Source of the DNA: Flavobacteriaceae bacterium
GTDB lineage: Bacteria; Bacteroidota; Bacteroidia; Flavobacteriales; Flavobacteriaceae
Direction of reading: 5' to 3'
Assembly: GCA_018608485.1 (NCBI GenBank)
Contig: JABAZK010000134.1
Span: forward strand, 1-32,033
DNA length: 32,033 nucleotides
Shown: piece after piece, positions 6,930 to 16,190 of the stretch
How positions within the stretch are numbered: the stretch's first letter is position 1
Layout of the letters: the number at the start of each line of letters is the position of its first letter
Program-made: the position numbers and the translations under genes
The notes under the pieces: generated by a model
What the model was told of the DNA's origin: nothing
Databases searched by the model: none
What the model saw: only the letters and a program-made list of their open reading frames with translations

Positions 6930-8618
6930 TTAATAGGCATCTTCATGAACTGTTTTAATTGCTCTCCCGCTCGGCTCATTCATATTTTGAAAACTTTTAT
7001 CCCAGGCCAATGCAGTTGGAGTGCTACACGCTATAGATGGTACAGATGGCACTGTTAATGCTGCAGTATCTGAAGGGAAATGTTCTTCAAAAATAGATCG
7101 GTAATAGAATTCTTCTTTTGTTCTTGGAGTTTGATTTGGAAAACGATGAGTGGCTTGCTTCATTTGTTCACTAGACACTGCTTCATCTACCAATGTTTTT
7201 AAAGTATCTATCCAGCTATATCCAACACCGTCTGAAAATTGCTCTTTTTGCCTCCACGCTACAGATTCTGGTAATAAGCTTTCAAAGGCTTTTCGCAATA
7301 CCCATTTTTCCATACGCTCTCCATTAATCATTTTATCTTGAGGATTTATTCTCATGGCAACATCCATAAATTCTTTATCCAAAAAAGGGACACGACCCTC
7401 AATACCCCAAGCAGCCAAACTTTTGTTAGCTCTTAGGCAATCATATTGATATAGTTTATCCAATTTACGAACAGTTTCTTTGTGAAGCTCTTCAGGGTTA
7501 GGTGCTTTGTGAAAATATAAATATCCTCCAAAAATTTCATCTGCACCTTCTCCAGATAACACCATTTTGATTCCCATAGACTTTATAACTCTAGCTAACA
7601 AATACATTGGAGTTGAAGCTCTAATAGTAGTGATATCGTAGGTTTCTAGATGATAAATAACATCTCTAATTGCATCTAATCCTTCTTGAATTGTAAAGGT
7701 CACTTCATGATGTATGGTTCCAATATGATCTGAAACAATTTTAGCTGCGGCTAAATCCGGAGATCCAACCAATCCAATTGAAAAAGAGTGTAGCTGTGGC
7801 CACCAAGCTTCTTGGGTATCTCCAGATTCAACTCTTTTTTGTGCATATTTTTTTGCTATAGCAGAGGTTATAGATGAGTCTAGCCCTCCAGAAAGTAATA
7901 CGCCGTAGGGTACATCAGACATAAGTTGCCTGTGAACTGCAGCTTCTAAAGCTTTTTTTAATTCATCAATGGATGTTTGATTTTCTTTTACAGCCTCAAA
8001 ATCCATCCAATCCCGATCATACCATTTGGTAAGTTTTCCGTCTTTGCTAGATAAAAAGTGTCCAGGAGGAAACACTTCAATTTTATTACAAACTCCTTCA
8101 AGAGCTTTTAGTTCTGAAGCTACATAAAATGTTCCATTTTTATCCCAACCTATATACAAAGGAATAATACCCATATGGTCTCTGGCAATCAAATATTCGT
8201 CTTTAATACAGTCATAAACAGCAAATCCAAAAATGCCATTTAAATCATCTAAAAAGGCACTTCCCTTTTCTTGATACAATGCCAAAATCACTTCACAATC
8301 AGATTGGGTCTGAAATTTGTAGGAACCCTCAGATTCATTCTCTTCACCAGCTACAAATTGTTTTCTTAATTCTTGATGGTTATAGATTTCACCATTAGCT
8401 GCCAAAACAAGTCGTTTGTCTTCGCTAAATAGGGGTTGTTTCCCTGAAGCAGGATCTACAATTGCAAGTCTTTCATGAGCTAAAATAGCCTTATCGTTAC
8501 TATAAATACCACTCCAATCTGGTCCTCTGTGTCTAATAGATTTAGACATTTCTAAAATTTGAGGTCTTAATTTTTCTGATCTTTCCTTTAAATCAAATGC
8601 ACACACTATACCACACAT
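6930..8618 (-). CDS. asnB: Asparagine synthase B (glutamine-hydrolysing)
   Basis: 562 aa; MCGIVCAFDL N-terminal Cys nucleophile, SIRHRGPDWSGIY, LAANGEIYNHQELR, YGVLLSGGLDSSITSAIA, LSGEGADEIFGGYLYFHKAP. Confidence 0.97.
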   Translation of the reverse strand: MCGIVCAFDLKERSEKLRPQILEMSKSIRHRGPDWSGIYSNDKAILAHERLAIVDPASGKQPLFSEDKRLVLAANGEIYNHQELRKQFVAGEENESEGSYKFQTQSDCEVILALYQEKGSAFLDDLNGIFGFAVYDCIKDEYLIARDHMGIIPLYIGWDKNGTFYVASELKALEGVCNKIEVFPPGHFLSSKDGKLTKWYDRDWMDFEAVKENQTSIDELKKALEAAVHRQLMSDVPYGVLLSGGLDSSITSAIAKKYAQKRVESGDTQEAWWPQLHSFSIGLVGSPDLAAAKIVSDHIGTIHHEVTFTIQEGLDAIRDVIYHLETYDITTIRASTPMYLLARVIKSMGIKMVLSGEGADEIFGGYLYFHKAPNPEELHKETVRKLDKLYQYDCLRANKSLAAWGIEGRVPFLDKEFMDVAMRINPQDKMINGERMEKWVLRKAFESLLPESVAWRQKEQFSDGVGYSWIDTLKTLVDEAVSSEQMKQATHRFPNQTPRTKEEFYYRSIFEEHFPSDTAALTVPSVPSIACSTPTALAWDKSFQNMNEPSGRAIKTVHEDAY

Positions 8619-8825
8619 ATTCTCAATTTATTTATTTAAAATTAGATGATTGTAAAATCTGTGCAAAGAATGGTAATAAAGTTTATAAAAAGAATAAAAT
8701 AATATTATTTAGTTTTAATTTATAATTTTTTTTTAATAAAAAACTATAACATGTAACTTATTTAAATATAATTGCATTGCTTGCCTTACATATTATAAAT
8801 GGTTAAAAAAAAAATATAATAAAAC

Positions 8826-8856
8826 TTGTCATATTTAAATTGAGGGTTTAAATTTG
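8826..8856 (+). promoter_or_regulatory. Predicted Bacteroidota-type promoter of the trp operon (TTG-N20-TAAATTTG)
   Basis: TTG at 8826-8828 and TAAATTTG at 8849-8856, 20-nt spacer; fits the known TTG-N17-23-TAnnTTTG consensus of Bacteroidota housekeeping promoters. Confidence 0.75.
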
Positions 8857-8863
8857 TAGTGTA

Positions 8864-8908
8864 ATGAAAAGACAACAAAATACATGGTGGTGGAATTCTT
8901 TTATCTAA
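8864..8908 (+). CDS. trpL: trp operon leader peptide MKRQQNTWWWNSFI*
   Basis: ATG AAA AGA CAA CAA AAT ACA TGG TGG TGG AAT TCT TTT ATC TAA; three consecutive Trp codons, followed by an intrinsic terminator and trpE. Too short for the supplied ORF track. Confidence 0.88.
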   Translation: MKRQQNTWWWNSFI

Positions 8909-8943
8909 ATAAGTGAGGACCAAACATGTATATATCATATTCT

Positions 8944-8974
8944 AAAAGGCTTATCTCACGATAAGCTTTTTTTT
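8944..8974 (+). terminator. trp attenuator: intrinsic terminator between leader peptide and trpE
   Basis: AAAAGGCTTATC-TCAC-GATAAGCTTTTTTTT: 7-bp perfect core GCTTATC/GATAAGC (8949-8955 / 8960-8966), G-U and A-T extension, 8-nt T-tract. Confidence 0.9.
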
Positions 8975-8975
8975 A

Positions 8976-8993
8976 TGCTGAATTTGTTCAGCA
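8976..8993 (+). repeat. Second perfect hairpin between the attenuator and trpE
   Basis: TGCTGAA-TTTG-TTCAGCA, 7-bp perfect stem, no T-tract. Confidence 0.7.
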
Positions 8994-9032
8994 GACACGT
9001 AAAATTTAATATTGAATATAAATTCAGTCTAA

Positions 9033-10424
9033 GTGAAAAAAGTATCATTTAAAACCATAAGCTCAACAAGAATCTCAGATACAATTACGCCTGTTGGGTT
9101 ATATATTAGATTCAGAGATTTATATGCCAATACACTACTGTTGGAAAGTTCAGACTACCATAGTAAAGAGGAGAGCTACTCTTTCATTTGCATAGAGCCA
9201 GTAGTTTCCATGAAAGTAGAAAATCATCAATTCTCGATAAATCAGAACGGTAATACAGTTTTTAAAGATCAAGTAGAGGGTAATTTTTATACATTATTTT
9301 CAAAATTTAGCCAAAGTATCGATTTGGATTGTGATGAATCTTTAAAGTCATTCAATGGATTGTATGGCTATACTACTTATGATAGTGTTCAGTATTTTGA
9401 AAAAATTAAATTCGCAACCAAGCAAGCAGATTCTTCAATACCATTCATGCAATATGGTTTTTATCGATTTATAATAGCGATCAATCATTTTAACGATGAG
9501 ATGATTCTTATTGAAAACGTAGAAGAGGGAACAGCTTCTAGAATTTCTGATATAGAAACTATTATAGAGTCACACGCCTTTAATACTCAATCTTTTGAAA
9601 TTATTGGTGAAGAATCTTCAAACTGTACAGATAGTGACTTCAAAGATTATGTAAAAAAAGCAAAACTTCATTGTAAAAGAGGTGATGTTTTTCAATTGGT
9701 ATTATCTCGTCAGTTTCAGCAAAAATTTAAGGGTGATGAATTTAATGTGTATAGAGCATTACGTTCTATAAATCCGTCCCCATACTTGTTTTATTTCGAT
9801 TATGGAAGTTTTAAATTGATGGGATCTTCACCTGAAGCTCAAATAAAAATAAATGCTGGAAAAGCAACAATAAATCCTATTGCAGGAACTTTTAGAAGAA
9901 CGGGAGATATGGCCCAAGATATAAAGCTTGGTAAGTTATTGTCAGAAGATGAAAAAGAAACGGCAGAACATGTAATGTTGGTAGATTTAGCTAGAAATGA
10001 TCTTAGTAAACATGCAGAGGAGGTAAGTGTAGCGGTTTTTAAAGAGGTTCAGTTTTTTAGCCATGTCATTCATTTGGTGTCAACTGTTCAAGGAAACATC
10101 AAAGAAAACCCTATGACTATTGTTGGAGATACTTTTCCTGCAGGAACGTTAAGCGGTGCTCCTAAATATAAAGCAATGGAATTAATAGATAGATATGAAA
10201 ATCAATCTCGCGGATTTTATGGAGGAGCTGTAGGTATTATTGGATTGGATGGATCTGTAAATTTAGCAATAGCAATTCGCTCTTTTGTGAGCAAACAAAA
10301 TAAATTATATTATCAAGCAGGGGCAGGGATAGTGATTCGTTCAGATGAAGAGAAAGAATTACAAGAGGTTAATAATAAACTGGCAGCATTAAAAAAGGCA
10401 TTGATTTTAGCTGAAAAAATTTAA
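9033..10424 (+). CDS. trpE: Anthranilate synthase component I (GTG start)
   Basis: 463 aa; chorismate-binding domain: RGDVFQLVLSRQF, PSPYLFYFDYGSFKLMGSSPEAQIK, NPIAGTFRRTGD, EHVMLVDLARNDL, FPAGTLSGAPKYKAMELID, AGAGIVIRSDEEKE. First of the trp cluster. Confidence 0.95.
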   Translation: MKKVSFKTISSTRISDTITPVGLYIRFRDLYANTLLLESSDYHSKEESYSFICIEPVVSMKVENHQFSINQNGNTVFKDQVEGNFYTLFSKFSQSIDLDCDESLKSFNGLYGYTTYDSVQYFEKIKFATKQADSSIPFMQYGFYRFIIAINHFNDEMILIENVEEGTASRISDIETIIESHAFNTQSFEIIGEESSNCTDSDFKDYVKKAKLHCKRGDVFQLVLSRQFQQKFKGDEFNVYRALRSINPSPYLFYFDYGSFKLMGSSPEAQIKINAGKATINPIAGTFRRTGDMAQDIKLGKLLSEDEKETAEHVMLVDLARNDLSKHAEEVSVAVFKEVQFFSHVIHLVSTVQGNIKENPMTIVGDTFPAGTLSGAPKYKAMELIDRYENQSRGFYGGAVGIIGLDGSVNLAIAIRSFVSKQNKLYYQAGAGIVIRSDEEKELQEVNNKLAALKKALILAEKI

Positions 10425-10425
10425 G

Positions 10426-11004
10426 ATGAAAATACTAATTATAGACAATTACGATTCGTTTACTTACAACCTAGTTCACATGGTTGAAAAGATAACAAAT
10501 GAATATCCAACGGTTGTTAGGAATGATGAAATTTCAATTGATGAAATTAACATCTTTGATATGATAATGTTATCTCCAGGACCAGGAATTCCCGATGAAG
10601 CAGGAATTCTTAAAGAAATTATATCAAGGTATGCTGGTAAAAAACCAATCTTTGGAGTATGCCTTGGTTTACAGGCAATTGTTGAAGTTTTTGGAGGAAC
10701 AATAATTAATATGGATGAGGTATATCATGGAGTTGCTACCGAGATGGAAGTGATTATATCTAATGCGATTATTTTTAAAAATATCCCAGTAAAATTCAAA
10801 GCAGCGAGATATCATTCTTGGATAGCATCCAATCAAAACTTTCCTACCGAGTTAGAGATAACTGCAAAAGACGAAGCAGCAGGAATAATGGCAATTCGTC
10901 ATAAACATTTTCCAATTAGTGCAGTTCAATTTCATCCGGAGTCAATTTTAACAGATCAAGGAGAACAAATAGTTAAAAATTTTATAGATGCTTACAAGAA
11001 ATAA
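10426..11004 (+). CDS. trpG: Anthranilate synthase component II (glutamine amidotransferase)
   Basis: 192 aa; MKILIIDNYDSFTYNLVHMVE, LSPGPGIPDEAG, GVCLGLQAI, AVQFHPESILT; directly after trpE. Confidence 0.96.
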   Translation: MKILIIDNYDSFTYNLVHMVEKITNEYPTVVRNDEISIDEINIFDMIMLSPGPGIPDEAGILKEIISRYAGKKPIFGVCLGLQAIVEVFGGTIINMDEVYHGVATEMEVIISNAIIFKNIPVKFKAARYHSWIASNQNFPTELEITAKDEAAGIMAIRHKHFPISAVQFHPESILTDQGEQIVKNFIDAYKK

Positions 11005-11059
11005 ATTTTAAAAGAAAGTTCTAGAAAATAATAACGACTCATTTAAGATTATTTGACAA

Positions 11060-12058
11060 ATGAAAAACATATTAAATCAATTATATCAATATAAAAAACT
11101 ATCAAAGCCTGAAGCAAAACAGATTTTGATAAAGATTGCCAGAGGAGCTTTTAATGAGGCTCATTTAGCTTCTTTTATGACTGTTTTTATGATGCGTCCA
11201 ATCACTGTTGATGAACTTGCTGGTTTTAGAGAGGCCTTGTTAGAATTGGCAATTAAAGTTGATTTATCTGAATATAACACCATAGATATAGTTGGTACAG
11301 GAGGAGACGGTAAAGACACGTTTAATATTTCAACAATCACTTCTTTTGTGGTGGCAGGAACTGGTCAGAAAGTTGCAAAACATGGGAATTATAGTGTATC
11401 CTCAAAATCAGGTTCTTCAGATATGTTACAAAGTTTTGGGTATGAGTTTACAAATAATGAAGCTACTTTAAGAAGTCATTTAGAGAAAGCAAATATTTGT
11501 TTTTTACATGCACCAAAATTTCATCCAGCCATGAAAGCTGTTGGGCCAACAAGAAAAGCATTGGCTTTGAAAACATTTTTTAATATGTTAGGACCATTGG
11601 TGAATCCAAGTTCGCCTCAAAATTTAATGTTGGGTACTTTTAATTTAGAAATAGCTAGATTATACAATTATATTCTACAAGATGAAAAAAGTCAATATGG
11701 AATTATTCATGGGCTTGATGGATATGATGAAATATCTCTTACCAGTGGTTTTAAATTATTTACCAAATCTGGAGAACAACTAATTAATCCAGAAGATAAT
11801 GGTCTAGAAAGAATTTCTCAATCTGAAATTTATGGAGGCAATTCTGTTGAAGATGCTGCTAAGATTTTTAAAAATATTATTGAAGGAAAAGGAACAAAAG
11901 CCCAAAATAGTGTGGTTCTTGCCAACGCTGCTTATGCGTTAAAAATTATAGATAAAAACCTTACGTTTGAAGAGGCTTACAATACTGCAGAGGGTTCTTT
12001 GCTCGGTGGAAAGGCATCTCAATGTTTACACAAATTAATTACCAACTGCTCATCATGA
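11060..12058 (+). CDS. trpD: Anthranilate phosphoribosyltransferase
   Basis: 332 aa; DIVGTGGDGKDTFNISTITSFVVAGTGQKVAKHGNYSVSSKSGSSD, HPAMKAVGPTRKAL, FFNMLGPLVNPSSPQNLMLGTF. Confidence 0.96.
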   Translation: MKNILNQLYQYKKLSKPEAKQILIKIARGAFNEAHLASFMTVFMMRPITVDELAGFREALLELAIKVDLSEYNTIDIVGTGGDGKDTFNISTITSFVVAGTGQKVAKHGNYSVSSKSGSSDMLQSFGYEFTNNEATLRSHLEKANICFLHAPKFHPAMKAVGPTRKALALKTFFNMLGPLVNPSSPQNLMLGTFNLEIARLYNYILQDEKSQYGIIHGLDGYDEISLTSGFKLFTKSGEQLINPEDNGLERISQSEIYGGNSVEDAAKIFKNIIEGKGTKAQNSVVLANAAYALKIIDKNLTFEEAYNTAEGSLLGGKASQCLHKLITNCSS

Positions 12059-12840
12059 CAATATTAGATAAAATAATAGCTTTTAAAAAGAAGGAAATCA
12101 CTAAAATAAAGTCAGATGTTCCACTAAAAAAATTAGTAGGAAGTCCTTTGTTTCAGAGAACTCCACTATCGTTAAAAAAATCATTGTTAGAGGTAAATTC
12201 ATCAGGAATTATTGCCGAATTTAAAAGGCAATCACCCTCCAAAGGGGTTATTAATGACAAAGCTTCCATAGAGGAAGTTACTAATGGGTATTTAGATGCC
12301 AATGTAGCAGCGCAATCTATTTTAACAGATACTTCATTTTTTGGTGGAACCATGGTAGATTTAATGAAAGCTAGAACTATTAACACTGCCAAACCAATTT
12401 TGCGAAAAGATTTTATTGTAGATGGTTTCCAAATTGTGGAAGCTAAAGCAATTGGAGCAGATGTAATTTTATTGATAGCTGCTTGTTTAACAAAAGAAGA
12501 GCTTAAAAATTATGGAAAATTAGCTGAAGACCTAGGGATGGAAGTGCTGTATGAGGTGCACACTCAAGAAGATTTAGATAAGATAGATCTTCACAATAAA
12601 ATTATTGGAATTAACAATAGAAACCTTAATACATTTGAGGTAGATCTTGAAAATTCTGTAAATCTAGCAAATCAAATCCCTGATGATTGTGTAAAAATAT
12701 CAGAGAGTGGCTTGAGTGATCCTAGAATTATTTCGGGTCTTAAGGAGTATGGTTTCAATGGATTTTTAATTGGAGAAAACTTCATGAAAACTGACAATCC
12801 TGGTGAGGCATGTGAGTCATTTATTAGTCAAATTAGATAA
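12055..12840 (+). CDS. trpC: Indole-3-glycerol phosphate synthase
   Basis: MTILDKIIAFKKKEI..., IIAEFKRQSPSKGVI, KPILRKDFIVDGFQI, IGINNRNLNTFEVDL, SESGLSDPRI. Start set to ATG 12055 (ATGA overlap with the trpD stop) instead of the longest ORF at 12022. Confidence 0.95.
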   Translation: MTILDKIIAFKKKEITKIKSDVPLKKLVGSPLFQRTPLSLKKSLLEVNSSGIIAEFKRQSPSKGVINDKASIEEVTNGYLDANVAAQSILTDTSFFGGTMVDLMKARTINTAKPILRKDFIVDGFQIVEAKAIGADVILLIAACLTKEELKNYGKLAEDLGMEVLYEVHTQEDLDKIDLHNKIIGINNRNLNTFEVDLENSVNLANQIPDDCVKISESGLSDPRIISGLKEYGFNGFLIGENFMKTDNPGEACESFISQIR

Positions 12841-12843
12841 AAA

Positions 12844-13488
12844 ATGAAGCTTAAAGTTTGTGGAATGAAATATATTGAAAATATCAAATCTGTTGCAGAT
12901 TTGAACCCCGATTATTTGGGATTTATTTTCTATGAACATTCACAAAGAAATTTTAAGGGAGTGATACCATCACTTTCAAAAAGTATAAAAAAAACAGGTG
13001 TTTTTGTAAATGAAGAAGTGCCTATTGTTCTTTCTAAAATTAAGAAGTATCAACTTGATGCAGTTCAACTTCATGGCGATGAGTCTGTACCTTATATTAG
13101 AGAGTTAAAGAGTCAGTTTTCAAATAAAATTGAGATTATCAAAGTAGTTGGGTTAAATACAACGGTTCAATTTGAGCAGTTAATACCGTTTGAAAAAGAA
13201 GTAGATTATTTTCTTTTCGACACAAAAGGGAAAAATCGAGGAGGCAATGGAATAAAGTTTGATTGGTCTATTTTAAAAGGATATCCTTTCACGAAACCCT
13301 TTTTTTTAAGTGGAGGAATAGGACCCAATGATGTGGAATTAGTTAAAAATATTAAAGTAACTGGATTACCAATATATGCTATAGACATCAATAGTAAGTT
13401 TGAAGATAAGCCAGGCGATAAGAATATTAATAAAGTGAGAAAATTTAAGAATCAGTTAGATTATGAAATCAAAATTTCATCCAGATAA
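12844..13488 (+). CDS. trpF: Phosphoribosylanthranilate isomerase
   Basis: 214 aa; [64 protein letters not shown]. Confidence 0.94.
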
Positions 13489-14644
13489 AAGCGGTTATTT
13501 TGGACAATTTGGTGGGGCATTTGTTCCAGAATTATTATTTCCTAATGTAAAAGAGTTAGAGGATAATTATATTCAAATTATTGAATCTGAAGAATTTCAA
13601 CAAGAATACAAGGATTTATTAAAAGAGTATGTTGGACGCCCAAGTCCATTGTATTTGGCAAAACGTCTATCAGAAAAATACGGAGCTTATATTTACTTAA
13701 AACGTGAGGATTTAAATCATACAGGAGCGCATAAAATAAATAACACCATTGGGCAAGTACTGATTGCAAAGAAATTAGGCAAAACAAAAATTATAGCCGA
13801 AACAGGAGCTGGACAGCATGGCGTAGCAACGGCAACAGTTTGTGCATTAATGGGGCTTGATTGTACCGTTTTTATGGGAGAAAAAGACATTGTAAGACAA
13901 GCACCTAATGTTGCTCGTATGAAAATGTTAGGCGCTACCATAGTTCCTGCAACAAGTGGGAGTAAAACACTAAAGGACGCTACCAATGAAGCTATTAGAT
14001 ATTGGATTCAACATCCAGAAACTTTCTACATGATTGGTTCTGTGGTTGGACCTCACCCTCATCCAGACATGGTTGCTCGCTTACAAGCGGTTATATCAGA
14101 AGAAATTCAATGGCAATTAAAAGAAAAAACTGGTAAAACAACACCAGATACTATCATAGCCTGTGTGGGTGGAGGTAGTAATGCTGCTGGAGCATTTTAT
14201 CATTTTATGGATGATGAAAACGTAGAGTTGATTGCTGTTGAGGCAGCTGGTTTGGGTGTTTATTCAGGTGAAAGTGCTGCTACATCACAATTAGGAGAAG
14301 TAGGGATTATTCATGGAAGTAAAACAATCTTAATGCAAGACGAGTACGGACAAATAAAGGAACCATATTCTATTTCTGCAGGACTAGATTATCCAGGAGT
14401 TGGTCCGTTACATGCATTCTTGTATGAGAGCAAGAGAGCAGCGTTTATGAATGCAACAGATAGAGAGGCCTTAGATGCTGCATATGAGTTAACGAAGTTG
14501 GAAGGAATAATTCCTGCTTTAGAAACTGCACATGCATTGGCAGTTTTACCAAAATTAACATTAAAAAAAAATCAAGTTGTTGTTATTAATTTATCTGGAA
14601 GAGGAGACAAAGATTTGGAAACATTTATTAAACATTTAGAATAA
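13463..14644 (+). CDS. trpB: Tryptophan synthase beta chain
   Basis: 393 aa; [73 protein letters not shown]. Confidence 0.97.
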
Positions 14645-15420
14645 TGAGTATAGAACACATTCAAAAAGAAATTAAAGGTTTAAGACAAGAATTAAAATCA
14701 CATAGACTTTATCAAGAGTTAGAGACTATTGAAGATATAAAGATTTTTACACAGGATCATGTTTTTGCAGTTTGGGATTTTATGTCATTACTGAAAACTC
14801 TTCAAAGAGAATTAACATGCGTTTCTATTCCTTGGGTTCCCAGAAAAAAAGGGAAGCTTACTCAGTTCATTAATGAAATTGCGTTAGCGGAAGAAAGCGA
14901 TGAAGATCTTACAGGAGAAACTAAAAGTCATTTCGAAATGTATCTTGAAGCCATGAGTAAGATGGGTTCTAATACTGAAAAAATTGAAACCTTCATGAAT
15001 GAAATCTCCAATAATCGTTCAGTAAGTGAAGCACTACATATGGCAAAAGTTTCTAAAGCTGTAAAAAACTTTGTAGAAGTTACTTTTAATACAATTTATA
15101 GTAATGATGCTCATAAAGTTGCTTCAGCCTTCACTTTCGGTAGAGAAGATTTAATACCAGATATGTTTGTTGAAATCATTCAACAAACTCAGGATAAAGA
15201 ATCTTTTAAAGATTTTTTATATTATTTAAATAGACATGTTGAATTAGATGGAGATTCTCATGGACCTCTTTCATTAGAAATGATCGTTGAGATGTGTGGC
15301 GATAATCAACAAAAATGGGATGAAGTTTTAGCAACAGCCAAGCAATCTTTACAAGTAAGAATTTCTTTATGGGATTATATTGCAGATCATATTTCTAAAC
15401 GCAAACTTATAAAAATCTAA
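14644..15420 (+). CDS. DUF3050-like, heme-oxygenase-like fold protein embedded in the trp operon; function unknown
   Basis: 258 aa [57 protein letters not shown]...; family recognised from the HVFAVWDFMSLLK and RHVELDGDSHG blocks. ATG overlaps the trpB TAA by 1 nt; stop is 2 nt before the trpA GTG. Confidence 0.85.
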   Translation: MSIEHIQKEIKGLRQELKSHRLYQELETIEDIKIFTQDHVFAVWDFMSLLKTLQRELTCVSIPWVPRKKGKLTQFINEIALAEESDEDLTGETKSHFEMYLEAMSKMGSNTEKIETFMNEISNNRSVSEALHMAKVSKAVKNFVEVTFNTIYSNDAHKVASAFTFGREDLIPDMFVEIIQQTQDKESFKDFLYYLNRHVELDGDSHGPLSLEMIVEMCGDNQQKWDEVLATAKQSLQVRISLWDYIADHISKRKLIKI

Positions 15421-15422
15421 TC

Positions 15423-16190
15423 GTGAGTTCAATTTTTAATTTATTAGAAGAAAAACCAGTAAATAACTTATCAATTTACTTTACTGCAGGTTTCCCTGAG
15501 TTAGAGGATACTGCAAAAGTGATTCAAGAGTTAAGTAATGCTGCTGTAGATTTTATTGAAGTGGGTCTTCCATATTCTGATCCTTTAGCTGATGGTCCTA
15601 CAATTCAGAAAAGTAGTCAAAAGGCATTGCAAAATGGAATGAATTTGGATGTAGTTTTTGATCAACTATTAGAAATTAAAGCAACTAATAACACACCACT
15701 AGTTTTGATGGGTTATCTGAATCAATTATTAAAATATGGAGAAGAGAAATTTTGTCAAAAAGTAGTTGATTGTGGAATAGACACATTAATTTTACCAGAC
15801 TTGCCTATGGTTGAATATGAAAACCATTATCAATCATTATTTAATTCTTACGGACTCAATAATGTATTTTTAATTACGCCACAAACTTCAATAGAGAGAA
15901 TTTTAAAAATAGATTCGTACACTCAAAGTTTCATTTATATGGTTGCTTCAAGCTCCATTACTGGAGCAAAAGGAGAAATCTCTGAAGAGCAATTAGCCTA
16001 TTTTAAAAGAATCAAATCTATGAACTTGAAAAGTAAATTAATTATAGGTTTTGGAATTTCTGATCATCAAACTTTTTCTAAAGCATGTGAGTATGGAAAC
16101 GGTGCCATTATAGGTTCTGCTTTTATAGAAAGTTTAGAGAAAAATGGAGTAGAAAAAACTAATACATTTGTAAAATCAGTTCTAAACTAA
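15423..16190 (+). CDS. trpA: Tryptophan synthase alpha chain (GTG start)
   Basis: 255 aa; YFTAGFPELEDT, DFIEVGLPYSDPLADGPTIQKSSQKAL, LVLMGYLNQLLKYG, ASSSITGAKG, IIGSAFI. Confidence 0.96.
   Translation: MSSIFNLLEEKPVNNLSIYFTAGFPELEDTAKVIQELSNAAVDFIEVGLPYSDPLADGPTIQKSSQKALQNGMNLDVVFDQLLEIKATNNTPLVLMGYLNQLLKYGEEKFCQKVVDCGIDTLILPDLPMVEYENHYQSLFNSYGLNNVFLITPQTSIERILKIDSYTQSFIYMVASSSITGAKGEISEEQLAYFKRIKSMNLKSKLIIGFGISDHQTFSKACEYGNGAIIGSAFIESLEKNGVEKTNTFVKSVLN

Follow-up and report, generated by a model that had tools for sequence, protein, structure and literature searches.

The leader region of the trp operon in the window (the whole stretch of 32,033 nucleotides that was analysed) very probably contains a ribosome-mediated transcription attenuator, as judged from its sequence and from folding models. 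The original prediction had read the region as a trp attenuator, and this is still the best reading, supported by family-wide conservation of the Trp codons, of the terminator and of where the antiterminator segment lies, and by Trp runs before trpE across the phylum; the antiterminator itself, which the mechanism needs, was missing from it. By homology the element is of a kind already known and predicted in the phylum, a divergent, uncalled and unannotated member of the Rfam family RF01692, to which our analysis adds an explicit predicted 2:3 antiterminator, a putative near-leaderless start and broader sampling. The features are as follows, with their basis in brackets.

8826-8828, + strand: putative -33-like TTG of a Bacteroidota sigma-A promoter, a weak element 20 nt before the -7 box (sequence)
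8849-8856, + strand: TAnnTTTG -7 promoter box TAAATTTG; putative start at 8861, 3 nt 5' of the leader ATG (sequence and family comparison)
8864-8908, + strand: leader peptide ORF, MKRQQNTWWWNSFI and stop (sequence and family comparison)
8880-8898, + strand: strand 1 of the 1:2 hairpin, AUACAUG (8880-8886, overlapping the first Trp codon, W1), UGG (W3, 8891-8893) and UUC (8896-8898) onward (fold, swap test, RF01692 structure)
8885-8893, + strand: three tandem Trp codons, the control codons (sequence; kept in 104 of 110 family genomes)
8913-8931, + strand: strand 2, GUGAGG (8913-8918, segment 2), CCA (8920-8922) and CAUGUAU (8925-8931) (fold)
8944-8955, + strand: terminator 5' arm, at the tip of which segment 3 starts (fold, terminator search)
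8954-8959, + strand: segment 3, UCUCAC, the 5'-arm tip and whole tetraloop of the terminator (duplex with GUGAGG, the predicted antiterminator)
8960-8974, + strand: terminator 3' arm (segment 4) and U-run (sequence, fold, terminator search)
9033-10424, + strand: trpE, start GTG at 9033, first gene of trpE-G-D-C-F-B-(DUF3050)-A (9033-16190)

Leader ORF, terminator and putative promoter

The sequence and its comparison with relatives show the ORF with its Trp codons, the terminator and a conserved arrangement of the segments. The leader ORF has 14 codons, from the ATG at 8864 to the TAA at 8906-8908, and its sequence, spacing and coordinates, including the TGG codons at 8885-8893, had been predicted exactly to the base; equally exact was the hairpin AAAAGGCTTATC-TCAC-GATAAGCTTTTT, announced 35 nt after the TAA and located at 8944-8971, with the T-run extending to 8974. 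This terminator is the sole one found within 8600-9100, where 0.1 would be expected, and its stem folds with -11.1 kcal/mol (z -7.4). Of 121 loci, 114 have an intrinsic terminator by a strict rule (T5 or more); in most of the remaining seven the T-run is interrupted. Just 3' of the terminator, at 8977-8994, there is a perfect hairpin, GCTGAA-TTTG-TTCAGC, without a T-run, for which no conservation was found beyond the closest relative. Within the operon, the gene at 14644-15420 (+) between trpB and trpA encodes a DUF3050 protein (PF11251), weakly similar to the haem-oxygenase-like Haem_oxygenas_2.

The motif TGGTGGTGG occurs once in the window, where 0.06 occurrences are expected, and has 53 matches across the window's own genome. 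Since it is this frequent elsewhere, the repeat by itself is no proof, and it is the position and the context that provide it. In a set of 110 Flavobacteriaceae genomes, most of which stand for a genus each, a short ORF (at most 40 aa) with WW lies within 350 nt of trpE in 108, and in 104 of them the run is WWW. In controls from a first-order Markov model, the yield per 125 sequences was 0.55 WW and 0 WWW. The claim that a run of Trp codons in front of trpE is beyond chance is thereby confirmed; conservation of WWW among relatives had been set beforehand as the test on which the hypothesis could fail, and the hypothesis survived it. Of the two exceptions, one (L053) is a contig end in which TGGTGGTGG can still be seen. 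In the other (L078) a Trp leader was not found within 350 nt of trpE, and a small GIY-YIG-like ORF is located ahead of the gene, where its insertion may have pushed the leader away.

The Trp runs belong to trpE: they precede it in 108 of 108 loci with usable upstream sequence, and none was found before hisG (0/14), pheA (0/14) or ilvD (0/11). Outside the family, in a phylum draw confined to genomes with a TrpE match of E <= 1e-80, hence without lineages whose TrpE is more divergent or whose operon starts with a different gene, a Trp-run short ORF is present at 34 of 35 trpE loci, 27 of them with WWW, compared with 0-6 and 0 in shuffles. The terminators of these loci differ from those of the family. 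A segment following the Trp codons pairs with the terminator above shuffles (p <= 0.05) in 20 of 34, the automatic terminator call being poor in a few (L130 and L171 among them).

Leaders rich in other amino acids were observed in front of other genes. His-rich leaders (HHH-HHHHHH) with terminators precede hisG in all 14 loci (L175-L188), and Phe/Tyr-rich leaders precede pheA in 13 of 14 (L189-L202), among them MQHICNRFFFYFYFFSKS in the window's own genome (L195, G000:C183). Both fit the pheA and hisG elements that are named as conserved in other genera (PMC9723704). Branched-chain runs precede ilvD in 7 of 11 loci; one of these regions (L238) carries tandem branched-chain leader peptides, MKKQVLNIISVIIVIVIISIG and MVKIVRVIIIIIVIINFFKS, each followed by its own terminator, a possible double attenuator, and L242 is possibly tandem in a similar way. 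Short ORFs with Thr/Ile runs (for example MRTIIRTTTTITL) were detected before the fused thrA-type aspartokinase-homoserine dehydrogenase gene in 4 of 10 regions (L231-L234); by the rule used, there is no such ORF in the corresponding upstream region of the window's genome.

Of 108 family loci, 102 have the sigma-A -7 element, a TAnnTTTG box, no more than 60 nt from the leader start; in shuffles the share is 8%. In Flavobacterium psychrophilum this box spans -12 to -5 (PMC9723704), and applying that spacing to the box at 8849-8856 places the probable transcription start at 8861. In 41 of the 102 loci the distance between box and leader start is 12 nt or less, which suggests 5' UTRs of 0-8 nt, as estimated from boxes and not from mapped starts. 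Genome-wide, leaderless mRNAs make up 5.5% in F. psychrophilum, and UTRs under 10 nt make up 3.7% in Bacteroides thetaiotaomicron.

Alternative pairings and the proposed mechanism

In thermodynamic models strand 2 pairs with strand 1, or alternatively its GUGAGG pairs with segment 3. When the region 8861-8959 is folded, the Trp codons sit in the 5' strand of the 1:2 hairpin, where AUACAUG (8880-8886) pairs with CAUGUAU (8925-8931) and UGG (8891-8893) with CCA (8920-8922), followed by an inner stem that in the window is weak alone (-0.5 kcal/mol). Across 114 loci the outer stem has -4.41 kcal/mol with its native partner and -3.61 +/- 0.12 kcal/mol with swapped partners, none of 50 swaps reaching the native value, a result to which shared ancestry may contribute. 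The hairpin region has a median z of -2.15, and z is below -1 in 99 of the 114 loci.

The alternative duplex GUGAGG:UCUCAC has -7.6 kcal/mol in the window (shuffle p 0.01), and the duplex between segment 2 and the terminator loop is better than dinucleotide shuffles (p <= 0.05) in 85% of the 114 loci, in nearly all of which segment 2 starts 17-20 nt past the last Trp codon. A compensatory change on both sides, GCGA:UCGC for GUGA:UCAC, is found in three loci (L007, L008, L045). The swap test of the 2:3 core is marginal, the observed value being reached by 87 of 2000 shuffles, and covariation events are few because the core is so conserved. A pseudoknot of segment 2 with the loop of the intact terminator was also considered and rejected, as the loop has 4 nt in the window, with no nucleotides joining the two helices.

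The influence of the ribosome was modelled by folding the RNA to just past the terminator loop with its 5' part masked, the mask reaching up to 14 nt past the Trp codon. With the ribosome stalled on Trp, P(2:3) exceeds 0.5 in 111 of 114 loci (W1) and in 113 of 114 (W3); for the window it is 0.99 in stalled states and 0.00 without a ribosome. In 113 of 114 loci, no more than 10 nt separate the leader stop codon from the beginning of segment 2. Once the ribosome is placed at the stop codon, 2:3 pairing drops to zero, which is a result of the masking, and it is the conserved geometry that serves as evidence. On the one hand, the window prefers 1:2 without a ribosome; on the other hand, 2:3 is still favoured in 37 of 114 loci, so that basal termination is not explained everywhere by the model. 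As 2:3 takes no more of the terminator than its loop and roughly 2 nt of the arm, we infer from kinetics that the terminator is blocked.

Transcription start, translation, kinetics and the response to Trp are supposed to be as follows. Transcription would begin about 3 nt 5' of the leader ATG, and a ribosome would immediately start on the 14-codon leader. With ample charged tRNA-Trp, this ribosome would get to the stop codon at 8906, where it either covers segment 2 (8913-8918) or departs and lets it refold into 1:2; the 3:4 terminator (8944-8974) would then form and transcription end ahead of trpE. When tRNA-Trp is uncharged, the ribosome would stall on the Trp codons and open the 1:2 hairpin, and the freed segment 2 could pair with the terminator loop and 5'-arm tip before the 3' arm is made. 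With 2:3 formed, the terminator could not nucleate and trpEGDCFBA would be transcribed. Among the characteristics of an attenuator, the short ORF with tandem Trp codons, the terminator between the leader and the first gene and the 1:2 hairpin that includes the control codons are present; an antiterminator that excludes the terminator and becomes available when a ribosome stalls is predicted, with marginal covariation.

The same conserved codons could be read in another way, namely that the leader peptide or the released leader RNA also acts in trans and that conservation reflects a function of the peptide. The residues N-T-W-W-W-N around the Trp run are conserved in many genera, and peTrpL of Sinorhizobium, which belongs to another phylum, is reported to act in trans (PMC7298713). 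However, the flanking codons are conserved where the RNA is paired, the A-T-A-C ahead of W1 being strand 1 of the hairpin, and the C-terminal sequence and length of the peptide are freely variable. As a cis role already explains the data, an additional role in trans appears improbable.

A different Trp sensor might control the terminator, with the ORF being incidental. T-box, riboswitch or TRAP-type elements regulate trp operons in Firmicutes. Yet no T-box or riboswitch was found at gathering score in the Rfam scan of the window, and no T-box at E <= 10 on 8820-9060, where a peptide leader ranks first among all Rfam families; moreover, retention of the Trp run in 108 of 110 genomes argues against an incidental ORF, and such a sensor is very improbable. 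Least credible of all is a third reading, in which either a partial terminator works constitutively and the ORF is due to chance, or the leader serves translational reinitiation at trpE. A part in reinitiation has been suggested for leader ORFs situated near structural genes (PMC4833913), but shuffles almost never match WWW at such a position, and the leader stop lies 124 nt ahead of trpE with the terminator in between, as against the 11-14 bp reported for the reinitiation effect in Bacteroidetes.

Family membership and comparison with known attenuators

Returning to the ribosome-mediated attenuator, a permissive Rfam scan aligns RF01692 (Bacteroid-trp; Weinberg et al. 2010, PMC2864571) to 8844-8955 over model positions 1-131 of 131, with 40.1 bits and E 0.0014. 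The gathering score of this family is 49 bits, which the window does not reach, and a default Rfam scan therefore misses the element. The empty scan at gathering level had suggested a new kind of RNA, an idea that was rejected when the permissive scan found RF01692. Close relatives of the window that share its anatomy fall on both sides of this score, at 50-56 bits (L005, L006, L009, L010, L043) or not called (L033-L038, L041, L042), and many loci of the family, again with this anatomy, reach 56-75 bits. The window's miss is a matter of threshold, and its identity as RF01692 rests on homology and not on the curated score; the window has what the family describes, a leader with Trp codons ahead of trp genes in Bacteroidota. 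For any other Rfam trp leader family, no similarity was detectable at E <= 10 on 8820-9060. The Rfam cut-off and model boundaries miss much of one RF01692 clade.

The original statement that similar leaders had been predicted computationally in Bacteroidota is true, the prediction being RF01692 of 2010, a family that the statement did not name. Transcriptome clues to leader-peptide attenuation before amino acid operons were described in F. psychrophilum (PMC9723704). Our literature search for earlier work on trp attenuators in Bacteroidota retrieved only that paper and, via Rfam, PMC2864571, with the comparative attenuation survey of Lopatovskaya et al. (2010), which PMC4833913 cites, outside its scope; the papers searched contained no experiment that tests such an attenuator directly in Bacteroidota.

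TrpE proteins of the family fall into two groups, one with 63-83% identity to the window's (Tenacibaculum and relatives) and one with about 53% (most genera), and each group has its own type of terminator. They may represent two lineages of the trp operon, each travelling with its own attenuator. A wider proposal can be put forward tentatively: the trp attenuators of Bacteroidota may be a structural variant that is old in the phylum and near-leaderless in a large share of genera, with a Flavobacteriaceae antiterminator that captures the terminator loop and not the arm. Ribosome-mediated attenuation requires a ribosome close behind RNA polymerase, and therefore a Trp leader conserved throughout this phylum, in which mRNAs are devoid of Shine-Dalgarno sites, is a natural reporter both of transcription-translation coupling and of near-leaderless initiation there.

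The window resembles RF01692 in the leader start, the AAUACAU-UGGUGG strand, the paired downstream strand and the AAAAGGCUU terminator arm, before the same gene and in the same phylum. The RF01692 model ends in the terminator 5' arm, so the terminator and the 2:3 pairing are not part of it. The terminator of the window is of the type GGCUUAUC-UCAC, compared with GGCUUGUC-AUUCAC in most of the family. The candidate attenuators of F. psychrophilum (PMC9723704) come from the same family, and the main text of that paper does not mention a trp element by name. Likeness to E. coli trpL lies in the short tandem-Trp ORF, the exclusive pairings 1:2, 2:3 and 3:4, a stop codon so placed that a ribosome there would cover segment 2, and the terminator before trpE. 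Two differences from E. coli trpL are highlighted: first, the window's leader has no Shine-Dalgarno sequence and a probable 5' UTR of 3 nt; second, 2:3 in E. coli takes the body of the terminator 5' arm, whereas the predicted 2:3 of the window takes the terminator loop and the tip of the arm.
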